In this document: positions 1-62,918 of the stretch, in pieces | How the letters are laid out: each line of letters begins with the position of its first letter | Position numbering within the stretch: position 1 is the first letter of the stretch | Source: Chondrosia reniformis | Lineage: Eukaryota > Porifera > Demospongiae > Chondrillida > Chondrillidae | Direction of reading: 5' to 3' | Length of the DNA stretch: 64,000 bases | NCBI GenBank assembly: GCA_947172415.1 | Contig: OX359193.1 | Coordinates: forward strand, 4,520,501-4,584,500 | The notes under the pieces: model-generated | What the model was told of the DNA's origin: nothing | What the model saw: only the letters and a program-made list of their open reading frames with translations | Database searches by the model: none | Position numbers and translations under genes: made by a program

Positions 1-866
1 GCATACCTTTTGTATTTTCTTCGCTTTTCACCTGATATGTTACCACTCTCCCTAAAGTATTCCTTATTCCATCTTCTAAGAGAACTGCTTCCAACTCCAA
101 ATGCTGTAGATACACTTTTACTTGCTACAGCCTTGGTGAAACCATGATGGTGTTGTAAGTGATTATATAAAAGTATAGTTACATCCTTTCTCTCTATTAG
201 GGGTACAAGTTGGAATGACTCCTTGAGCAATGGATGTGCCTCCAAGAAACTAAAAGAAGGGTGTTCATCAACATCTTCATCATCACTGTCCTACAAGTGT
301 AAAAATTAGATTTAATATAATCATTAATAAGATTTTCTTTTATCTCTTGAAATAACCTTTTTATAATGGTTTAATTTTAGCATGCATTATATTCACCTCT
401 TCAGAAGATGAAGATACAGGATCAGCTAATGAACTTAGGAGTTGGGGATGATCATCTTCCAGAGAAGGTAAGACAAAGGAAACCTCCGTGGAATAAGACT
501 CTTCCACTGAGCTTGTAGACACATCTACTGGTGCTGGGGAAGTTTGCAATAGCACTTGTTCAGCCTCTGCATGATTGTTTAATGTATTATGGCTTAGAGA
601 AAGGTATACATTTTACAGTGAGCGGTTTACATATTTTCTTTTAACTATATACTTTCATTGGATGATTCATTTATTAAAGGAGGTGAGGAACTTTGAAGTC
701 TGCTAGAAGCTATGCCTCTAGCAGTTTGCAGATGCCTCCTCCTCCTGTTCAGTGGACCTGGCTTATTATTAGGGGACTTTCTCTTTGGTCTTGGGGTCTC
801 TTCTCTTCTTTTCTCCGATTGATTTTCGCCCTGAAAAGTTGCTGACTTTTTACTGTTTTTGGACAT
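1..866 (-). CDS. Spliced HTH transposase-like gene, 5' part, open to the window edge
   Basis: Three exons fit one uninterrupted frame: 866-653 (start MSKNSKKS, Lys/Arg- and Ser-rich), 566-397 (acidic and serine-rich, ending SSSSEE) and 290-1. Splice borders are GTATAT/AG and GTGAAT/AG, and phases match at both joins (phase 1, then 0). Exon 3 reads DSDDEDVDEHPSF, then a helix-turn-helix-like stretch (KSVSTAFGVGSSSLRRWNKE) and GEKRRKYKR. The same architecture occurs at 48082-50278 and in broken form at 55520-57110, where a DDE core follows, so the missing 3' part probably encodes the nuclease. It could be an active element or a domesticated copy; no stop or frameshift is visible in about 220 codons. 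The catalytic part lies outside the window. Confidence 0.6.
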
Positions 867-1267
867 ACTTGCTCTTCAAAAAGGGCCAAAATGATTCAAA
901 AATTATCGTTTAACTTTGAACTTAAATTTTGGTATCGAGAAATGACTTTAATATATAGGAATCGCCTAGAATATTCTAAATTTATATTTGGTTACTTAGT
1001 GGCAACCATTTTGTGTTTATAGATAAACGCTTTTGTATTGCTTGTAATCCCGTTGCTATCTTATTATATATTCATGCGTGACTAAATACCGTAATCTGAT
1101 TGGTTAAAATGGGTACCCTCATTTAAACAGTAATAATTCCTTAATAAAAAAAGATATTGAAATTCCGAAAGAAGTTCTAGATTCTGCATACCCTCTTCAA
1201 TTTGATACCATCTACAGAAATAAGATAGAAATAAGTAATTTATGGCTTTGTAAAAAATTGCTCACTT
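867..1267. other. No gene recognised
   Basis: A+T-rich sequence between the start of the left-edge gene and the RecQ-like exon. Any promoter of the 866 gene should lie at about 870-1060, but no clear TATA or initiator signal stands out. Confidence 0.5.
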
Positions 1268-2389
1268 ATGGTGATTTGCACTATAATCACTTTTCTGGTG
1301 ACATGTGTAGCAGTGGCTGTCAATGCCATTACATTCAATCTTGGCATTACTACATGTATTTCTCCAATGTTTGAGAATTCTCTACGAAAGTCACTCCCCC
1401 TAGAAAGAGTGCAAGATGCAATAATTCCACACCTCACAAACACACATCAATCACTAGAACACTAGCACACTCATACCCTCACACCACACGAACATTCATG
1501 CATTATTAGTCTATTGTCGTTCCTACCTTGATATAATTACTGTCTTCTAAGAATTGGCTGTTAACTTTGAACTTGGGAAATTCGCTGGTAATCAAGGACA
1601 AGGATGGTCATGTCCTTGGAAGGCTTGCTGAGAAGTATGATGCACGCATGCCTGCACACACACATCACTAGATTATTCATACACCACTAGCCAAATTCTA
1701 TTATACAGTAGCTTACATACACGCACAGGAACTAAACACTAAACATACTATTCAGCTGTGACTCACCATTCCTTGATACAGTGTGCTACATCCACGGCAA
1801 GTCCTATCAAATACTCTTGGTAAACCTCTGACCTCAACATGTCTTGATTGCGTAAGTCCAAAAGAGCCTCTAGGCTCATGAATATCAGCTGATATTCACC
1901 ACGATGCACGCTTTCCAAGTTGCCACGTCCCTTTGTAGCAATACTTGGTATTCCTATTGCGGAAAAACGGGCTACTTGGTCTTCCATTAGACTGATAAGA
2001 GGAGAGATGACAAGAGGTATGCTTGGACGCTGGTATTTTACTCCAACAGCAGCTTTCAACGCATCCACTACCTTGGGAAGCAGGACAAAACAAAGGGATT
2101 TCCCGCTGCTGGTCGGCAAGCAAACGAGCACGTTCCTTCCACAGAAAAAAACGGTTATGGCGTCAGTTTGCTCGGTGGTAAGTGATTCGTATCCCAGGTC
2201 TCTAGCGACATCAGCGATGACTCTCTGTATGCGCAGTGGCTCGACCGTTTGCTTCAACAAAGGTAACTCCATCTCCGCTGTTCGCACCAATGCACACGAA
2301 TGTGACCGACACGTTATTTGCTCATTATTATTCACGTATCTGCAATCTGATTGGATACTTAGATACCAGTAAGCTGTCACTTCAGACAC
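1268..2389 (-). pseudogene. RecQ-like DEAH-box helicase fragment, two exons
   Basis: Exon 2389-1767 carries the helicase N-terminus: a Q-motif-like TEQTDAI, Walker A in LPTSSGKSLCF, motif Ia VISPLISLMEDQ, and a motif II that reads DVAHC where RecQ proteins have DEAHC. A GTGAGT donor at 1766-1761 joins an AG acceptor at 1401-1400, restoring KEW-GSDFRREFSNIGE and motif III ALTATAT. A possible donor at 1267 ends exon 2; no further exon was found. Starts at 2389 and 2272 (MELPLLKQ) are both possible. The loss of the catalytic Glu of motif II and the missing second RecA lobe argue for a dead fragment. RecQ-like fragments of this kind occur as multicopy families in TE-rich invertebrate genomes (general knowledge). 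Confidence 0.75.
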
Positions 2390-2964
2390 TGCTTTTGGTA
2401 AGTGCTCAGGAAGATTAACCCTGTGACCCCACCTATATAAAAATGGCCACCGGAAATTTTGGCATTGTCTCGATTTAGCAGTTTATAACAAGGGAATAAA
2501 GCAACTTATTCTTTTTTGAATATTTAATAGATATATCTAGGTATCATTAGCTAATGGTTGCCAAGAAATTGACTTTGTTGATTTTCAGAAGTTAGACTAA
2601 ATACGGCTCTAATATGGACGCCATTTTATTTCGTCACACTTTATAATATTTTCTTAAGTCGACATATAAGCTAGAAGCCTGAAACTTTGTCAGTTTGTTT
2701 GGTAAATGTCATACTAAAATCAAAAAGCAGGAGATTTGATAACATGAAAAAATGTAGGAGTAGGATAACAAAATGTTGCCATCTATTAAAATAACTGCTT
2801 TTATGAGGTTACTGGAAGTTATTTAGTTAGTTAACCAAACTCTAGTTACAAATTAAACATGATATATATATACTTGCAGTTACTGATGTAGTTTGGCATC
2901 ATTTCAGGGTTACTTAGGCTGAAAACGTTTGTTCCATCTTTTCTTTTTGCTTCCCTTTTGTCTA
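2390..2964. other. No gene recognised
   Basis: A+T-rich sequence with no open frame of convincing composition on either strand. Confidence 0.5.
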
Positions 2965-3160
2965 TCACTGGGACAGTGGTCGATGGGATCTTTTTGTACT
3001 AAGGATTTTGTATCTTGTGTTGTCAAACATGGAGGAATGAAATAATGAATGACAACCCTTACTTAATGTCTGACAAAAATGTGGTTGATTAGGGCAATAT
3101 GGGCATCTTCTTTGGGTTTTCTGACCACAATTAATGCAGCGTTCTCTAGGACTAACATCT
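2965..3160 (-). pseudogene. Cysteine-rich C-terminal tail, possibly piggyBac-like
   Basis: The reading RERCINCGQKTQRRCPYC followed by FCQTLSKGCHSLFH has a Cx2C...Cx2C...C...H layout like the zinc-binding C-terminal domain of piggyBac-type transposases, followed by a short tail and a stop. No DDE core of the same element is adjacent; the sequence beyond about 3150 is an RT fragment on the other strand, so the piggyBac-like piece appears cut there. Assignment rests on Cys/His spacing alone, and another zinc-ribbon protein is possible. Confidence 0.4.
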
Positions 3161-3918
3161 TCATAGACCGGATAGTGACAGAAGCAAGGAAGCAATTTTA
3201 TGGCAATGTGCAGTTAACCACTGGGCAGTTGGAGGTGTTATTGTTTGCTGATGACCTGGTGATGCTGGCTGAAACTGTAGAAGCATTACAGCACAAGCTG
3301 CAAGAGCTGAATGATAAGTTGGAAGAATGGGGAATGAAGGCGAATTGGCCGAAGACAAGAGCCATGAGGATTGGAAGGAAAGAAGAGGTATGCAGTGTCG
3401 AAGTGAATGGCGAGAGGGTGGAGCAAGTGAAGGAGATGCAGTACCTTGGTGTAATGATTAGTGGTGATGGGTATATGGATAGGGAAGTGGAGCAAAGAAT
3501 AGGAAAGGCATCAAAAATGATTGGGGCAATTGGAAATACAGTGCTGGGAAGGAAGGAACTGATGAAGGGCACGAAATTAAAAGTGGTAAATGCTATGGTG
3601 ATACCCACCTTGACCTATGGATGTGAAGTGTGGGCTCTACAGGCAAGGCATAAGGGACGAATACAGGCTGTACAGATGAGGGTGTTAAGACGGATAGAGG
3701 GGGTGTCGAGATTGGATAGAATAAGAAACGTGGATCTTAGGGACAGATTAAAACAGGAGGGAGTTTTGGATTATGTGAAAAGACGGCAGCAGAACTGGAA
3801 GCAAAGGTTAGAAGAGATGAGTAGCAGTAGAGTGACAAAGAAAGTGCTCAACTGTGAGATCCCAGAAAAACGCCCTAGTGGAAGACCCAGAAGGAGATGG
3901 ATAAATAACTTTGAATAA
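3150..3918 (+). pseudogene. RTE-like non-LTR retrotransposon, 3' part of reverse transcriptase
   Basis: The frame is open from about 3150 to the TAA at 3916-3918. It starts inside an RT domain (FIDRIVTEA), carries the catalytic motif LLFADDLVML, then YLGVMISGDG, LTYGCEVWAL and the basic tail RPSGRPRRRW typical of RTE-type elements. The AP endonuclease and the RT fingers are absent, as expected for 5'-truncated LINE insertion. The first 70 nt of the nominal ORF do not look like RT and probably belong to older flanking sequence. The open frame over about 255 codons suggests a fairly recent insertion. Confidence 0.8.
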
Positions 3919-4086
3919 TTATTAATGTTGTACATTGATACAGGAAATTTTTCCACGCTAGTATAGTTATAAATATTAAACTTTGTCTGTAGAAAACTCT
4001 ATAGTTTGTTTGTTTGTAATCAGGGCGACCTCCCACTTGGGAGATAAAACCCTTCATCTTGTTTTAATTTGATTTGATCTCTAGGA

Positions 4087-4455
4087 CTATTTGGAAAAGG
4101 CTTGCTGCCATGAATAATACGACAGGATTCTGGAGGAAGATGAAATGGTTGAATAATATTGCAGGATCGTGTAGGAACTGTAGGTAGGAAGTAAGCGTAT
4201 TGGCCTAACAACGCTGCATGATGGAGGAGTAGTAATTGTAGGTTGGGTGATGGGAGAAGGTAAATGAATTGGCCCAACAACATTGCAGGATGGCGGAGTA
4301 GTAACTGTATATTGGGTGATGGGAGGAGCTAAATGAATTGGTCCAGCAATATTGTAGTATGGCAGAGAATTAGTACACAAGACCAAATCACAAGTCTCAC
4401 ATGGTGTGAAACCAATGTGATATCCAATGAAATGCCTAGTTTCAATGGGTTTCAT
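4087..4455 (-). repeat. 69-bp tandem repeat, in frame on the minus strand
   Basis: Between about 4130 and 4370 a unit recurs every 69 bp (for example starting near 4198, 4267 and 4336). On the minus strand each unit is exactly 23 codons and translates as variants of PPSCNVVGPIHLPSPITQ, inside an open frame of 122 codons (4455-4087). The multiple-of-three period could reflect coding constraint or chance. No family was recognised. Confidence 0.6.
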
Positions 4456-4750
4456 GCTCTATGATTTATTCTTCCTTCTATGTTGAGCATTCATATGCAT
4501 CATTTGTTGGGTCTAGTACTTACAGCAATATATACTTATCTCCATTAACCTAATGTTGTAAACACTTGATCCTGTAATATACAATCCATGATGTTCACCT
4601 CTTGTTGCAGTCATGTAGTGCTAAACATTAACATTTTCTCCTCCTCTGTCTGATCTGACCTAGATGGGACCCCATATTCCTGACATGCCTCAACAAAAGC
4701 TGTAAATACAGAAGCGGACTTATTGTTATTACTGCATTGCAATTATGTAA
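4456..4750. other. No gene recognised
   Basis: Spacer between the 69-bp repeat and palindromic copy A; nothing recognisable. Confidence 0.5.
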
Positions 4751-5474
4751 CTAGAAATATTAAAAATTTTCTACAAAAATAGTGGAGATGTAGGGATGGC
4801 ACAAAAAGTAGAGAAACAAGAAAGGGATGTTACACAGTGAAGTATTAGCTATGCATGAATCATACAACACCCTTGCTTGTAGGATTCATGTATAGCTAAT
4901 GCTTCACTGTGTAACATCCCTTTCTTGTTTCTCTAATTTTTGTGCCATCCCTACATCTCCACTATTTTTGTAGAAATTTTTTATTATTTCTAGTTTCTGT
5001 ACTTTTTATGGAGTATGGGCTAGGAATTATAATTGTGTACCATTTTGGTTTCGCAATCTTCGACTGATTATGACGTCATTAAAATGGCGAAATTATTGAG
5101 GCCTTGACTCTGGGGCCATGAAAACCGTCATACTCAATAATAGCGTTATCGCTCTCGCTTCTACAAAAGAATATAGCTCGGAAATTTGCAATAATTTCGT
5201 TTAACAATTAGTCCAAAAGCTTGTATAGTTTTTTAGTTATGGCTGACAAAGAAGAAGAATAAGAAGAATATGAAGAAGACGAAAATGGGAATTTTTATTT
5301 CGCCAGCGGGACATATTCGCTTGCCTTTAAGGTCTATTTAGAGTATGTATATTGTATATTTAGCTATACATAGCCTTGTTTTGTCGATTTTCGGCCTATT
5401 TTGGAATTTTGCTCCTATACGGACGAAAAAAACCGCGTCATCCCTACATAGGGAGTACTACCGTACTCCCTGAT
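4751..5474 (+). mobile_element. Palindromic repeat family, copy A
   Basis: A unit of about 720 bp seen four times in the window. Its first third (4751-4993) is a near-perfect hairpin with arms of roughly 105-120 bp and a loop of a few bases. Then follows a conserved unique part with a TGACGTCA site at 5071-5078 next to AAAATGGCG, a short acidic frame starting ATGGCTGAC at 5239 and closed by a stop after seven codons (MADKEEE), and a right end with the short palindrome AGGGAGTAC/GTACTCCCT. The right end abuts the integrase fragment at 5475. No transposase is encoded, so it is non-autonomous. Confidence 0.8.
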
Positions 5475-6256: not shown

Positions 6257-6537
6257 TTACAAACATGTAGCATACATACATACGTATACATAGTTTATAT
6301 CCAAAGGTATGTTCTTTTTGGCACATGTTGGGTCTACGCTTTGCACTGAAAAAATGAGGTTTGCTGTAGCGATTAATTGTCCTACACCACTCGTTGATAG
6401 TGTCCTTACTAGACTGTCATGCAGCAGTGTGGGTCTTTCTATTGACAAGAGGAAAATGTAAGAAGCATTTTCTCTCTGTGGCTTGTAGTAAGGTCTTGTC
6501 AATTTGAAGCTTGCCCTAACTACCATTTCAGTTTCTT
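6257..6537 (-). CDS. Hypothetical exon-like open frame
   Basis: An open frame with more balanced base composition than its surroundings, reading VVRASFKLTRPYYKPQREN then FLLSIERPTLLHDSLVRTL and SGVGQLIATANLIF. No family recognised. It has no clear start codon of its own, so it may be an internal exon or a TE fragment. Confidence 0.25.
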
Positions 6538-8890
6538 CTCAGATGATCAAAATACACCAAATTATACAAATCTATTAAAGTTTTATAATAAACCATTACT
6601 ATACACACTCGATTTTTATATTACTTTACATTTCTGTCTATAATTACTACAATAATCGTTATTTACATACAATATTAAAACTGCAGTAATTACTGAATTA
6701 AAAACCGCAGCAGTTTCTCCCTCCTCGTGCACACCAGGCACGCAATCTTCTTACAGAATCATACTGCACACAAATAAAATCCAATAAAAACTGCAACTTG
6801 TGTTCTATTTTACATTATTCCCTACAACACTTACAATTGGCCGAGGGCCGAAATGGTCTTCACTACATGCAAGACAGCTAGAACGTTCCCTCTTTTCATT
6901 GTTGTATATTCTATACAATATGCCCCCTTTCTGCTAGCACTATATATTTACACCCTACATAGCGTCATTACAACATGGCTGTATTTCCGGAAAAATGGCT
7001 GACGTTGCATTTTTGTTATGCGTATTGACATGTTTTTATAACGTTGTGTGATTATGGTTTATATATCGCTGTGGAATATTTCAATTTGTATAGGGAGTAC
7101 TGATATGTGGTTTGATAACCAACTGAGCAAATATGTAACATTTGACTAAAGGTAAACATGGTCACATCTACATTTCACAATGCTTACCTTTAGTCTAACG
7201 TTATCAATGCCATTCCTTGCTTCATACCACTCCCTACTTCCTAACCACCAGCAGTACTACTACAGGTGAAAGAAGGTAGGGTCTAGCACAATATCCAAAT
7301 AGTGCTAATATGACCTTAGACTAGTGCTTGCTTTACACCTAAAAATGTTTCGTGCTCCTTTCAAGACAACAATAGCCATTGCCTACTTGTCAGGAATCAC
7401 TTTTATATCATACAATATCACTTTAACATGACTTTACTATAACAGTACTACCCCTTTCCAGTTAGCCCATTCTAACTGAACTACCCTACTCTAGTTACCC
7501 TATTACTATGCCTCACCTTAATTGAATGAACTCAATCACCAACTTCACTCTATTTTATTATATAATTCTCTCTCATTTTTGTACATACTATATATATCCT
7601 ACCATTTATAATACTACTGAATTGATGATCACTCTAAAACAGTTGTAATTATACTACACACAACTTCTACATTGAACATATGTATTTCAACAACTGAACA
7701 ACTTACTAGACCTCCCCAAAACCATTAATTATTACTAAATTGTGGCAACTACTTACACTAGGTTATCCTATCAAAACTTAAGAATATCACACCATCTCAT
7801 TATTAACACCTTTTTCGTTTATTCATATAAGTCATTCATATTTTATCATTTTCAGACTAAATCTACTATAATCGTCTCAATAGCATTAACCTATACCCAA
7901 TATACTTTAATATTTTTGTTTAATATCACCCTTTATATCAATTACACATTATCTTCCAACTTAACATTACTCCTGTTTAGAAACTATCCCTTAGACCACT
8001 CTTACATCATTACAAACAGTCACTTCATCCTAGCTGTACACCCTTAGTGTTGCGTAACACTAGTCTTTATTTAAAAAATTATCGTGTGAATTCAATAAAC
8101 ATCTCAATTACTCTTCGCAATATTAAAACAAACAGTCTCTCCTACCAATGGTCATGCTTTCTAGAATTATATAACAAACCACATACATTCCAATAAACAA
8201 TACTATCACCTTGATACACACAAGATACAATTTCTAATATTTTCAACATCTTCATCAATGAATCTCTACATTTTGTAACATACGTATGTTTATTATGGTT
8301 ACATTTAGTTAAAAGCTACACACACGTAGATACTATATAGCTGCTATAAATGGTAGGAATTTTACTGTACAAACACACAAACAGCTGCGTTGGCTTCGTA
8401 TGAGGGAATAATATTAATACAAAGACTTACCTTTTAACAATTTCAATCATATCCAGGCAAATCAGTAGGAAACACACATATACATTACAACAATACTAGC
8501 ATCATCATACATTCTTATTTGTATAAAGCTCAAACTGCAATGATACACATTAATAATTTATATTGTATAGGACGCCTACGAATTGCATAACGGAACGTAG
8601 CGTTATGATTAAAATGTTGATAGGCATTCTAGAAGTTTTGTGACCTAAGCGTTTCGAACAGGAAAAGACCCGTTACCATCATAACTATTATTGGTTGTTA
8701 TCAAAATTGTAATTCCCATGGGAATAGTGACGTCACCTCATCATTTCTTCCTAAGATTCTGAGAGGAATAGGAAGACTCTGTACGCCAATAGATACAAAT
8801 CAAGCGCCCACTTTGCAGCAAAGCTAGCTTAAACTAAACACATATAAACTACATATCAACAACTCTCAGTGACATATGTACGCATGTTAG
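6538..8890. other. Gene-poor tract with strong G depletion on the + strand
   Basis: No convincing gene. From about 7440 to 8045 the + strand has very few G residues (often 2-6 per 60 bases) while C remains common. The 101-codon frame at 7742-8047 (hydrophobic, Tyr/Leu/Ile-rich) is most easily explained by this composition. A short palindrome (TAGTGTTGCGTAACACTA) sits near 8044-8061, and an inverted repeat built on ACTAAAGGTAA lies at about 7144-7197. Confidence 0.55.
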
Positions 8891-8892
8891 CT

Positions 8893-8957
8893 CCACTTCC
8901 TAGGACAGGCAGGTTTTACCTGTTTCGCCCAATGCCAGGGCTCATCAGCTAGGATGG
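8893..8957 (-). ncRNA. Type I hammerhead self-cleaving ribozyme motif
   Basis: Read on the minus strand, every core element is present in order: stem I 5' strand UCCUAG (8954-8949); CUGAUGA (8948-8942); stem II GCCC/GGGC (8941-8938 with 8930-8927) closed by a 7-nt loop; GAAA (8926-8923); stem III CAGG/CCUG plus the A-U pair at 8923/8905; the unpaired C at 8904 as cleavage residue; then CUAGGA (8903-8898), the exact complement of stem I. A further CCA/UGG pairing extends stem I past a 2-nt bulge. Open-stem-I hammerheads occur in Penelope-like elements and animal retrozymes (established knowledge). No associated ORF or second ribozyme copy was found nearby. Confidence 0.8.
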
Positions 8958-9898
8958 GATGTACTGGCATCATATTATCAGCGAATTGTAACCTTACATG
9001 TGGATAATGATTTGAAATGCATCATGTAGTGAACAATGATTGTAAAACACCCGCTTTAAACTCACCATTAGTAGGTTTAATGAACGATATACATAACCCC
9101 CAAATTGCTAAATTATATACACCAGTGTTTTAACAATCTGTATCATCAGTCTGCAATTATACCTTCTCCTGGCATCTTTACTTTACACTGATGTGATATA
9201 CAAACTCCACTTCATTGCAATACAATTAATCCAAACTACAACTTTCCTAACTTCAATAGATTGCTTAATTTTCAATAATCTAAACTCAAACACCACCATT
9301 TGTTCAAATCAGATCAAATATTTTCCAATATACACCAACATTCCATTTCTACAAGTGCAGGAATCATACCTGACAACTCCATATAATCAATGATCAAATT
9401 ACCATCACTCCACGTGTTGCATATACATATATTCCAAACTTCGTAGTCTTTAAATACACCCATTCCACCTGAAAACAACACTAACCCTTTTACTCCGTAA
9501 ACCCTAACCTATCTAATACAGAAATAGCTACATTATATGCACACACTCACACATCTATTTATACAGACATTCTTCCTAACATACGAATATTACCTAAATT
9601 ATCTAAATCATCTATCATCACAAAACTGCGCTTTCTTCTAAAAAACCTTTATAACAAAACACTATTCCTTTCAATTAACGTTCGCATTGCTTACAGACAC
9701 ACAAAATAACCAACAAACTAATCACTTCCTGCTTCTATCTACTCTTTACCTACCCAGACAAGTATAAACGTACATGCCCTGCAATCCATCCGTTAAATTG
9801 TACAAAGCGAACTGACTCTATTTTAAAATAACCTTCCATTATCTTGCTGATTTCATTCCATACGTAACGCTTTGATTAACATACTCTCGTTCGATTAC
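8958..9898. other. Gene-poor, G-depleted tract
   Basis: Second G-poor block, about 9060-9895, compositionally like 7440-8045. The frame at 9193-9393 is low-complexity and not convincing. It ends at the T run that marks a LINE 3' end on the minus strand. Confidence 0.5.
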
Positions 9899-44785: not shown

Positions 44786-45352
44786 ATATGTATATATAAT
44801 ACGAGTTCATACGCAATTATTGTAACACTTAATTAATACGTCAATACATGGTTTGGGAAATGGCTGCGTTCAGGAAGCTTTACTTAACGAAGCTTTTCTG
44901 TCGCTATTCATAATGTTCAGGACACTTAAGCGTCCTCAATCATTAGGATTAAGAATATATATATTAAAGCCCAACGATGCGAGTTAATTTAGGGGGCGGC
45001 GGCCCACGAGTTTTTAAACTCGAAATACTTGTTTTACACCTCTTTAACGAATCAGTTTTTCCAGTACTGATGCAGGGAGATCTTGCTACCAAATGAGGTA
45101 TCAGTAATATTTGATATATTATTCGTCCTTTACTTAATTGCTTGACTCCAAATAAATGATTTTATTCGTTACATATTCCTAATGCTGTATAACTTTATTG
45201 TAGTTTTTCTTATAGGGACATGTACCGAGAATCTGTTCTATTATTTGTTCTAATTCTACATAGATACATACACTACATGCAACATATGAATAATTGATGT
45301 GATAATCCAACCACAAGTAATAAGCAATAAAACATCAAAAAGAGGGAAAAAC
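44786..45352. other. No gene recognised
   Basis: A+T-rich spacer with no open frame of note. Confidence 0.45.
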
Positions 45353-45424
45353 ACAATTGCTAGGAATCGAACCCAGCACAGCTGGTTATGACCACCAGTC
45401 GTTCTGTCACTGAGCTACAACTGC
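45353..45424 (-). tRNA. tRNA-like sequence (tRNA pseudogene or SINE head; CAT or TCA loop)
   Basis: On the minus strand a 72-nt cloverleaf can be drawn: acceptor GCAGTTG/CAATTGT (7 pairs, two G-U), A-box-like TAGCTCAGTGACAGAAC, anticodon stem CTGGT/ACCAG with loop GGTCATA, T-arm CTGGG-TTCGATT-CCTAG with a perfect B box GGTTCGATTCC. The loop has G where tRNAs have U33 and the D stem has a mismatch, so it is probably a pseudogene or tRNA-derived repeat rather than a working tRNA. CAT in the loop hints at Met origin. Confidence 0.55.
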
Positions 45425-48081: not shown

Positions 48082-50278
48082 ATGTCTGATAATACGGAAG
48101 AAAGAAACAATATTGACAGCCATCATGATAATTCGGTTTTGCGAAGCAATCTGCAATCGACTCCAGGACCTAGCAGTTGTCATCCAATTAATTTAAAATT
48201 GAGTTCACCTCAAGCACCATGGAAAGGCAAAAGAAAGCGTTCTTCCAGAGGATATAAAGCCATAAATAAACGCTGGAATCCACAACCAACAGTCCTATTC
48301 CATGCTAGTACTAGTCCCATTGCAAACCAGCATCCCATATGGCAAAACACTCCAGATGACTTACCTAGCAGCTTAAGTGGGGAGGCAGAAGAGAGTTTTT
48401 TACTTCAACATGGTCCCTTCTCAACTTCAGATCTTGATTCAGAAGTTAGTTTATATGCCACATGCATCCATATACAATAAAATTCTTTATTAACTTGCCT
48501 GTGTATGTTCAGTATATAGCACACATGAACATGCAATGCATATTATATATAAATTTACAAATTACATAATTTACAATAGGTTTATAAAGTTACAAATGAA
48601 AATGTCAGTTGAATCTTGTATGCTGAGCTTGCTTGTCCTATAGGATGGAACAATATTAAAAAGATTTCTGTGTGGCTAGGTATTGACATGGTGAAATCTC
48701 TGATACTACATAAGCCAGGCAATTGGATTTGTTAATAAACCAAACGTTTTGACCCCAATCTAGGGGTACCAAAGAGTGCTTGCCTTGTACTCAGATCATT
48801 ACAACTGATGAAGACCCCTGGATTGGGGTGAAAGCGTTTTGTTTATTAACAAATCCAACAGCCCAATTTCAGGCTGGCTAGTACAGTACTAGAGATTTCA
48901 CCACAAGTAGTAATTGTAAATGTAAAATGTATTTTTTTAATATATATACAGGAAGTTGAAAGTGGAGAGAGCAGTAGCAATGATGAGGATGATTTCAACT
49001 TAGATGATTCAGTGCCTCATTTAACTGATTGGATGAAGACAATGCCATCAAGGGATCGTAAGAAAATAGCAGTTCTGCTATATCACCATTTGCACAAGAT
49101 GTATGAACCAGACAAGACCAAGGCAGCTCAGAGTGCTGGTTTAGCATTGGGATATTCCAGAAAGACCATCTACAAATGGGTACGGCAATACTGTAGAAAT
49201 GGAGGTGAATTTGCAACTTCTGAAAGGGGTAAGTACAAAAGAGATACTGTACTAGATCAAGAAGATGTCACCAGAAAAGCTGTCAGATGGCAGAAAGTTC
49301 ATGACAGAAAATTCAACCTGACTCACAAGAGATTTCAGACATGGTTAAATGAATATCTTCAAAAGCTGGAGTTCCCAGATACCATTAAAAAGAATGTTTC
49401 AGAAGCTACTGCCTTTAGGTATATGAAAAGGTTAGGATTTACTCACAGATGATACAAGCAGGGCTACGCAGATGGCCATGAGAGGGAAGACGTGGTAGAA
49501 TACAGAAAGCTGTATTTAAAGAAGGTAAGAATTTTGGAGGCATCCCATTTACCTCCACCCACATGTGAAGACAACATACCATCATGGAACAGTGGCAGCA
49601 ATTCAAAGGCAAAAAATGTGGTATTCATCTATCATGATGAGACAACTTTTAATGCCTATGATGCCAACCATCAGTTTGGGTGGATCCATGTGGCAGTAGT
49701 GAGGTTCGACCAAAAGGCAAAGGGCAAGGTATTATGGTAAGCGACTTCATTGATGAGTTTTCTGGCTATCTCCGCCTTACTGATGAAGAGCAAAGAGCTG
49801 TGCAACGAGAATATCCCTTTTGCCCAAAGGAAGCCAGAAGGATTACCGAACATCAGAGAGATGGCTATTGGGACAATGCTAAGTTCATGAATCAAATTAA
49901 AGCAGCAGCAATGATAGCCCAATTCAAGTATCCAAGAGAAATGTATGATCTTGTATGGATCTTTGACCACAGCAGTGGTCACCAGGCATATAATGACAAC
50001 GCATTAGTAGCCACACGAATGAATGTGAAGCCAGGTGGGAATCAGCCAGTGATGCTGGATGGGAAATTACCTAATGGCAATTTACAGGAGATGTGTCTAC
50101 CAAATGGCACTCCTAAGGGGTTGGAGCTGGTTTTGCGAGAGAGGGGTGTGGACACCACTGGTATGGTGAAGATTGATATGGTTCGTAGGCTTCAGAAATT
50201 CGAGGATTTTAAGAATGAAGTCAGCAGTGTTGAAGCGTACTTGAAATCAAAAAATCATCCATGTCTATTTTCTCCCAA
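48082..50278 (+). pseudogene. HTH-DDE transposase-like gene, second copy (one stop, one frameshift)
   Basis: Exon 1 (48082-48444, MSDNTEERNNIDSHHDNS, ending DLDSE) joins by GTTAGT/AG to an exon from 48952 (EVESGESSSNDEDD) in phase. It continues with the HTH region SAGLALGYSRKTIYKWVRQY, WQKVHDRKFNLTHKRFQTWL and DGHEREDVVEYRKLYLKK, the first catalytic region VFIYHDETTFNAYDANHQFG, then IMVSDFIDEFSGYLRLTDEE, the second catalytic region VWIFDHSSGHQAY and VKPGGNQPVM. A TGA at 49450 and a frameshift near 49700 break it. It ends at FSPK/GTACAA; the third catalytic block (expected ELNPIE-like) is absent because Merlin sequence follows. D...DHSSGH order fits an IS630/Tc1-related DDE fold (inference). 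Confidence 0.7.
48688..48905. mobile_element. Foldback element within an intron
   Basis: Arms of about 85 bp in inverted orientation: left GGTGAAATCTCTGATACTAC..GGATTTGTTAATAAACC and AACGTTTTGACCCCAATCTA; right the complement, TAGATT-like CTGGATTGGGGTGAAAGCG, TTATTAACAAATCC and TAGAGATTTCACC. It lies wholly inside the intron 48445-48951. The CTGATGAAGACCCC...GGGGT core resembles Penelope-type termini. Confidence 0.75.
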
Positions 50279-62521: not shown

Positions 62522-62918
62522 AAGCTGGAAGCTTTAGGTAATTGAATTAAGTGCATCGTGCAACACCCAGGATTTCAGTCCGTATGCCTCTTGGGACTGC
62601 CAACCCTGCACTCGAACTACTTGGCTGCGTTGTTTGGCTTTAATATAAAATTCATAATCTCAATGTTTGAGGATGTCGGAACATTATAAATAATGATAGA
62701 AAAACGTTAATTATAGCTTCCTGAACCCCGCCATTTGCAAAAACAATGTATTGACGTATAAATTAAGTGCTATAATTATAGTTGCATATGAACCCATAAT
62801 ATATATATGTCTTTCGCTAACATGTAGCCATACACTGAAATCGGCAAATGCAGCCCCTAATAATAATAATACTTGTATGAAATGTAAGTTAGTGTATTGC
62901 AATAGTCTAATAGTCTTT
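62522..62918. other. No gene recognised
   Basis: Spacer downstream of the last exon of the minus-strand gene; nothing recognisable. Confidence 0.45.

Follow-up and report, generated by a model that had tools for sequence, protein, structure and literature searches.

The stretch of DNA analysed here, referred to as the window, comprises 64,000 nucleotides of the genome of the sponge Chondrosia reniformis (G000:C5:4520501-4584500; the genome searched amounts to 117.38 Mb in 15 contigs). Its minus strand carries a type I hammerhead ribozyme, which very probably lies in the remains of a CACTA/EnSpm-like DNA transposon (Table 1). Read from 8954 to 8898, the order of elements is UCCUAG-CUGAUGA-GCCC/UGGCAUU/GGGC-GAAAC-stem III-UC, followed after the predicted cut by CUAGGA. 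The CUGAUGA and GAAA boxes, U16.1-H17 and three helices in the proper order, with stem I open, are those of a type I hammerhead, and the full set of core positions claimed in a first-pass annotation of this DNA is indeed present. Stem I (UCCUAG/CUAGGA) has 6 bp, and beyond an internal loop UCC/GGA contributes the further 3 bp that had been described. In RNAfold, the three-way hammerhead junction was found to be both the minimum-free-energy (MFE) and the centroid structure of the window copy, and stem III was drawn with 7 bp (ACAGGUA/UGCCUGU, including one G-U). A rival hairpin that had been pointed out, CAGGU-AAA-ACCUG, does exist in the sequence, but it is absent from the MFE fold. The cut had been predicted between 8904 and 8903, a position that agrees with C17 at 8904. 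By sequence and predicted fold, the feature is confirmed as a real, catalytically complete type I hammerhead.

Table 1. Features at the ribozyme locus, in window positions
Feature	Position	Strand	Basis or remark
Type I hammerhead ribozyme with outer stem I	8888..8966	(-)	sequence, Rfam alignment, RNAfold, family model R1
Stem I, 5' strand UCCUAG	8949..8954	(-)	sequence, Rfam alignment
Stem I, 3' strand CUAGGA	8898..8903	(-)	sequence, Rfam alignment
Predicted self-cleavage site, C17 (8904) / 8903	8903..8904	(-)	sequence and fold
Terminal remnant (very probable) of CACTA/EnSpm-like DNA transposon, family 1, about 335 bp	8804..9138	(-)	alignment to relatives
Decayed transposon end GATTGTTAAAACACTGGTG	9120..9138	(-)	commonest form in other family 1 copies: CACTGTTAAAACACTGGTG

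Against the Rfam model Hammerhead_1 (RF00163), the window copy scored 24.8 bits (E 0.00094 for 501 bases), with all 45 positions aligned over 8954-8898. The gathering score of 34 bits, which is a curator's threshold and describes no structural feature, was not reached, and for this reason the Rfam scan of the window at the gathering threshold missed the hammerhead and reported a tRNA alone. The family model R1, trained on 16 of the 32 loci compared below, gave the window ribozyme 92.7 bits, a value that is high partly by construction because the window copy is among the training rows. In the rest of the window, R1 returned a single weak match (13.4 bits, E 0.32) and no tandem partner; the weak match (48787-48854, plus strand) has CTGATGA and GAAA boxes and is probably due to chance. 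The folding energy of the window copy was observed to be ordinary (z = -0.75; 46 of 200 shuffles at least as stable in RNAfold), so that the case for a hammerhead is independent of folding energy.

At least 31 relatives of the window ribozyme were found in the C. reniformis genome. A DNA search with window positions 8700-9100 gave 34 matches including itself, five of which lie outside the ribozyme, and a search starting from another ribozyme family added further copies. Across the 117-Mb genome, a 32-base core pattern allowing up to three mismatches was found 28 times and the reversed pattern 0 times, in keeping with the earlier view that such a combination is unlikely to arise by chance. The same annotation had named two findings that would jointly tell against the feature: the first, a covariance score below threshold, holds (24.8 < 34), but the second, an absence of further copies, fails. 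In a comparison set of 32 loci, window included, the exact CUGAUGA and GAAA are kept in 24 and absent in 8, and 20 of the 24 also have the closing CTAG/CTAG of stem I intact. Grouped by shared flanks, the loci form seven families and two singles: family 1 (the window and 8 other loci), family 2 (8 loci), family 3 (2 loci), family 4 (L029, L032, L033 and, via shared downstream pieces, L068), family 5 (L044b, L070), family 6 (L069, L071, L072) and family 7 (L035, L067). Most families can be aligned to one another over about 62-81 nt, corresponding to the ribozyme with outer stem I; the exceptions are 111 nt shared by L029/L032 with L036 and a separate 132-nt repeat common to L035 and L037. Stem III varies in both length and sequence among families. 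The hammerhead junction is the MFE structure in 8 of 19 folded copies (window, L023, L026, L029, L035, L036, L040 and L046); L045 and L067 come near it, and the other nine fold without it.

The near-exact ribozyme core had 0 matches in IMG/VR. In the genome, RF00163 gave at least 65 matches at E <= 0.001 and at least 51 over the cut-off, counts that are lower bounds because 73 of 11,921 candidates were scored; none of the 28 core-pattern places was seen among the 65 matches listed. Hammerheads of another class are also common here, and the eight best copies of that class read ACTGAYGAG..CGAAACAGCTGTC. Some places of this class lie 352-355 bp apart (for example C3:1599837/1600191 and C6:3921765/3922119), the spacing expected of animal retrozymes.

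What carries the ribozyme in the window? The first-pass annotation had placed it outside any recognised element, which does not stand, and had added that the host element might be undescribed or that its terminus alone might survive, which anticipated the terminal remnant found here. The window copy has GATTGTTAAAACACTGGTG at 9138 and can be aligned to its relatives as far as 8804, with 75-82% identity to the eight other ribozyme-bearing copies. Taken alone, the match of the window end is weak (2 mismatches; shuffle p 0.063 by per-locus permutation). Apart from the window copy, seven members of family 1 have a sharp start at CACTGTTAAAACACTGGTG, L040 showing the variant CACTTTT. The start motif of the family, CACTGTTAAAACACTGG (CACTTTTAAAACACTGG in one copy), adjoins unrelated flanks, and the DNA before the starts differs between copies, except in L046 and L047, which are alike there. 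L045 has lost its start end, and L048, about 450 bp long, is a deletion derivative belonging to family 1 in which both ends persist in decayed form and the ribozyme is missing. Judged from these sequences, the ribozyme is very probably a conserved resident part of CACTA/EnSpm-like transposons near one end, and what remains in the window is an old fragment from the end of one such low-copy element.

Several other repeats were noted around these copies. Right next to the remnant, on the minus strand at 8782-8290, lies another repeat with about 79% identity to four copies, L018-L021, clustered within 26 kb (C6:3241037-3266953). Window stretches 44788-45035 and 62610-62850 match an internal piece of the L040/L041 elements at 74-83% and may represent a small nested repeat; about 320 bp separate the former from a tRNA match (45352-45424). 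In L046, positions 1-4758 consist of tandem repeats with a period of about 250 bp that reach the base just before CACTG, and L040 has an array upstream as well (1-2916).

Complete elements with such ends were found elsewhere in the genome. L041 runs on into L066, and the two constitute one element of 7788 bp that starts with CACTG, ends with CAGTG and has GGTG/CACC repeats near the ends; its far terminus resembles those of L040 and L048. CACTG is a usual start of CACTA elements. The genome contains 33 ends of the pattern CACTGTTAAAA(N)GGTG, against 5 for the reversed control, and facing pairs of them delimit two whole elements, L060 (1772 bp) and L061 (9.96 kb). CACTG...CAGTG terminal inverted repeats accompanied by subterminal repeats are present in L041/L066, L060 and L061. 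The target duplication is exact in L060 (3 bp, TAT) and imperfect, with 2 of 3 bases matching, in L041 (TTT/TTG) and L061 (GTT/TTT); none was seen at L040 and L048. L060 and L061 are 96.7-100% identical over five stretches, which therefore suggests recent movement of such elements. The genome has 30 transposase matches; three transposase matches share 99-100% identity, and two of these lie no more than 27 kb from the start of a contig (C11:14934 and C2:5780268 were noted). Both near-identities are signs, at the level of sequence, that CACTA-like elements have recently been active. The ribozyme is absent from L060, L061 and a 2 kb read of L064, indicating that transposition can proceed without it.

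L041 and L061 contain putative transposase pieces, which are exon-like fragments, together with more open frames facing the opposite way. The pieces of the two elements are 47-61% identical to each other, and those of L061 are 36-45% identical to L074. A Pfam scan of the L041 and L061 pieces recognised no transposase family. The 621-aa open frame of L074 was found to match Pfam Transposase_21 (tnp2) with 27.0 bits (E 3.2e-6), under the cut-off of 28.6, and DUF4218 with 21.3 bits (E 2.5e-4), under the cut-off of 27; a PDB sequence search with this frame gave 0 matches. The string DIMHDVLEG is presumably a hallmark of animal EnSpm transposases. The longest open frames at ten loci were read, and none of ten pieces scanned with Pfam was a reverse transcriptase. 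At about 6450-8390, L043 contains a long tandem array that is open in several frames, with repeats like RERGRGRETVVSERG, and appears minisatellite-like.

The position of the ribozyme relative to the ends was compared across loci. In L041, of which both ends were read, the ribozyme core begins 166 nt inside the end and points inward; it lies past the transposase 3' end, in antisense orientation to the transposase. L042, read at its near end, resembles L041: 8.4 kb in, the opposite strand has a transposase match. Behind CACTG-type ends in three more families, ribozymes lie 75-133 nt inside, and the flanks are otherwise unalignable. At 18 of the 32 loci, a CACTGTTAAAA-like end with at most one mismatch lies up to 250 nt upstream in the same sense; the controls gave 0/32 (upstream reversed), 0/32 (downstream forward) and 2/32 (downstream reversed). 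These 18 loci, which represent about four or five independent cases, comprise seven from family 1, seven from family 2, two from family 3, L044b from family 5 and L072 from family 6; in L072 the end is 28 nt from the ribozyme. The 14 loci without such an end at that distance and stringency include the window copy, with its 2 mismatches. CACTG was rejected as a proven boundary for family 2, where a conserved repeat continues upstream past the motif. For family 4, the boundaries sought from L058 and L059 were uninformative, both being alike over most of 9.5 kb.

In L044b of family 5, the ribozyme directly follows the subterminal repeats; the 2 kb read of L064 has the same repeats yet no ribozyme. 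L073 carries its ribozyme in the same sense as the transposase, about 310 nt past the last transposase-like open frame, and in L029 the ribozyme follows the stop of a zinc-knuckle open frame by about 80 nt, also in the same sense. Orientation is thus non-uniform (antisense in L041, same sense in L073), and a single role for all copies is not secured. Downstream of the ribozyme, L029 (C13:3425763 region) and L073 (C1:3940779 region) have a histidine-phosphatase-like open frame (His_Phos_1, E 1.8e-7 and 0.18, respectively), perhaps a captured piece of a host gene.

The ribozyme was observed to be far less diverged than the DNA around it. In all pairwise comparisons among the nine copies of family 1, the pairs not being independent, ribozyme divergence was 3.0% (71 of 2380 sites) and flank divergence 16.1% (1565 of 9736). 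Between the window copy and L041, 1 of 69 ribozyme positions and 63 of 268 flanking positions are changed (Fisher p 3e-6), and all eight comparisons of the window copy with other family 1 copies are significant (p 3e-6 to 0.0018). Sliding 40-nt comparisons between the window copy and the other copies showed a divergence of 2-5% in the five sections between 8962 and 8883, 7-13% in the bordering sections, mostly 12-26% elsewhere and 41% at the far edge, so that the conserved trough coincides with the limits of the ribozyme. Families 2 and 3 show the same trend, mostly without significance (p 0.16 in family 3; one of seven comparisons below 0.05 in family 2). Among 15 distinct rows, covarying double substitutions were found in outer stem I (U-A/C-G) and in stem III (G-C/A-U). 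Three measures are above all 500 shuffles: the proportion of paired cells (97.8%), the number of cells with changes on both sides (8) and the covariation score. Two others are no better than shuffles: for the pairs with changes on both sides (2), 309 of 500 shuffles reach as high a value, and for further pair types (4), 500 of 500 do. When the partner was shifted by one column, paired cells fell to 55% or less. Given the low divergence, the coincidence of the trough with the ribozyme limits and the two covarying pairs, the ribozyme itself seems to have been retained. Gene conversion confined to 70 nt is a conceivable cause of the low divergence; selection on the ribozyme is the simpler account.

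As a whole, the data are best explained, with somewhat better than even probability, by a conserved hammerhead resident near the end of a CACTA/EnSpm-like transposon; its role may be to cut transcripts crossing this end. Because DNA transposons move without an RNA intermediate, self-cleaving RNA conserved close to the end of one would most likely act on such transcripts. Minus-strand RNA running through 8966-8888 would fold and then cut itself at 8904/8903. Transcripts that cross the end, whether by read-through from the neighbourhood or, as in L041, antisense to the transposase, would be severed soon after entering the element, which would spare the element antisense RNA and the host read-through. 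In the orientation of L073, the cut would instead remove the tail of the transposase mRNA. The cutting of end-crossing transcripts as the role of the ribozyme is put forward tentatively, at less than even probability.

The L073 arrangement leads to another possible role, in which the ribozyme, as a 3'-UTR module, would remove the poly(A) tail of transposase transcripts and thereby limit transposition; copies pointing inward and antisense would then be rearranged derivatives. Both L073, where transposase-like frames are followed by a ribozyme in the same sense, and L029, with its zinc-knuckle frame, are consistent with this. However, L041 and likewise L042 have the ribozyme antisense to the transposase, and three L061 transposase pieces have no significant match in the L029 region (L058). 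A 3'-UTR module is considered unlikely. The same low probability is assigned to the proposal that the ribozyme is simply carried as a passenger, having arrived in transposon ends with an RNA-derived insertion of retrozyme- or Penelope-like kind. Other hammerheads are numerous in the genome, as the RF00163 matches attest, and the subterminal region of family 5 exists with the ribozyme in L044b and without it in L064, as a passenger would predict. Most families, however, align over the ribozyme only, so that no larger shared insertion is seen, and passenger DNA should diverge like its flanks, contrary to the 3.0% against 16.1% in family 1.

A chance match or a meaningless inactive relic would account for the score under the Rfam cut-off, the ordinary folding energy and the eight copies without exact CUGAUGA...GAAA, but this reading is very improbable in view of the 28 core-pattern matches against 0 in the control and of the excess conservation of the ribozyme over its flanks. 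The least probable origin, again very improbable, is a remnant of a retrozyme or Penelope-like element, the carrier that the first-pass annotation had expected: most classical animal type I hammerheads do sit in retrozymes, according to the available part of one survey (PMC7229834), but a retrozyme carrier was rejected for want of tandem 150-450-bp units with a hammerhead each, no tandem partner being found in the window or beside the other family 1 copies, every family 1 locus except L044 having one hammerhead (the second of L044 sits behind another transposon end about 4.3 kb away), and DNA-transposon ends and a transposase being present instead.

The preferred reading, a hammerhead resident near a CACTA/EnSpm-like end, can be set beside known systems as these are described in the accessible parts of the cited papers. 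Animal non-LTR retrozymes are short tandem repeats that give linear and circular RNAs of about 170-400 nt, and they resemble the present case in having a type I hammerhead in an animal repeat (PMC7229834); here, single copies lie within elements that have DNA-transposon ends and a transposase. Penelope-like elements and Terminons are likewise mobile elements with a ribozyme close to one end, but they are retroelements with minimal hammerhead variants (PMC7229834, PMC6431247), whereas stem III here has at least 5 bp and the proteins read are a putative DNA transposase. Plant CACTA elements have tnp2/DUF4218-type domains and two frames, together with subterminal repeats and a duplication of 3 bp (PMC8978399). 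The elements described here resemble them in having inverted ends, two open frames and subterminal repeats in direct and inverted orientation; the L074 frame matches tnp2/DUF4218 at scores below the Pfam cut-offs, and one copy has the 3-bp target duplication. The self-cleaving ribozyme inside one end is a feature of the present elements, and the part of PMC8978399 available makes no mention of it for plant CACTA/EnSpm.

The 5' ribozyme of the R2 retrotransposon is also an end ribozyme separating an element from flanking RNA, as is proposed here, but it is HDV-like, belonging to a class other than the hammerhead, and resides in a retrotransposon (PMC3774820). Schistosoma W-elements have hammerheads in repeats suggested to be mobile, and one copy contains a 317-bp piece of the DNA transposon Curupira-1; they are nevertheless satellite-like, and no hammerhead built into a transposase-bearing DNA transposon appears in the portion of that paper available (PMC8490949). 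Bacterial hammerheads near integrase genes similarly adjoin DNA-integration genes, but their context is prophage and the proteins are unrelated to those here, as far as the part available describes them (PMC3088659). In animal genomes, hammerheads have so far been tied to retrozymes, Penelope-like elements, satellites and a few host introns (PMC7229834, in the part available). Literature searches, in which papers were judged mostly by title and the start of the abstract and few subscription papers were covered, found no earlier case of hammerheads with CACTA, EnSpm or other DNA transposons, and within the same partial texts no such case for hammerhead ribozymes in sponges, Porifera or Amphimedon or for self-cleaving ribozymes with terminal inverted repeats and a transposase. 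The separate parts are known, and the combination of a hammerhead with a CACTA-type transposon end seems to be new.

The broader proposal is that hammerheads are a selected working part of a superfamily of class II DNA transposons, common to CACTA families: an RNA-level device near one end that would cut crossing transcripts and would have been kept while the surrounding DNA diverged. We hold this to be possible at just under even odds. A conserved hammerhead in a DNA transposon without an RNA stage calls for a job other than the one it has in RNA-based elements. With copies that have and lack the ribozyme, in known orientation and within one small genome, the function of genomic hammerheads becomes testable.
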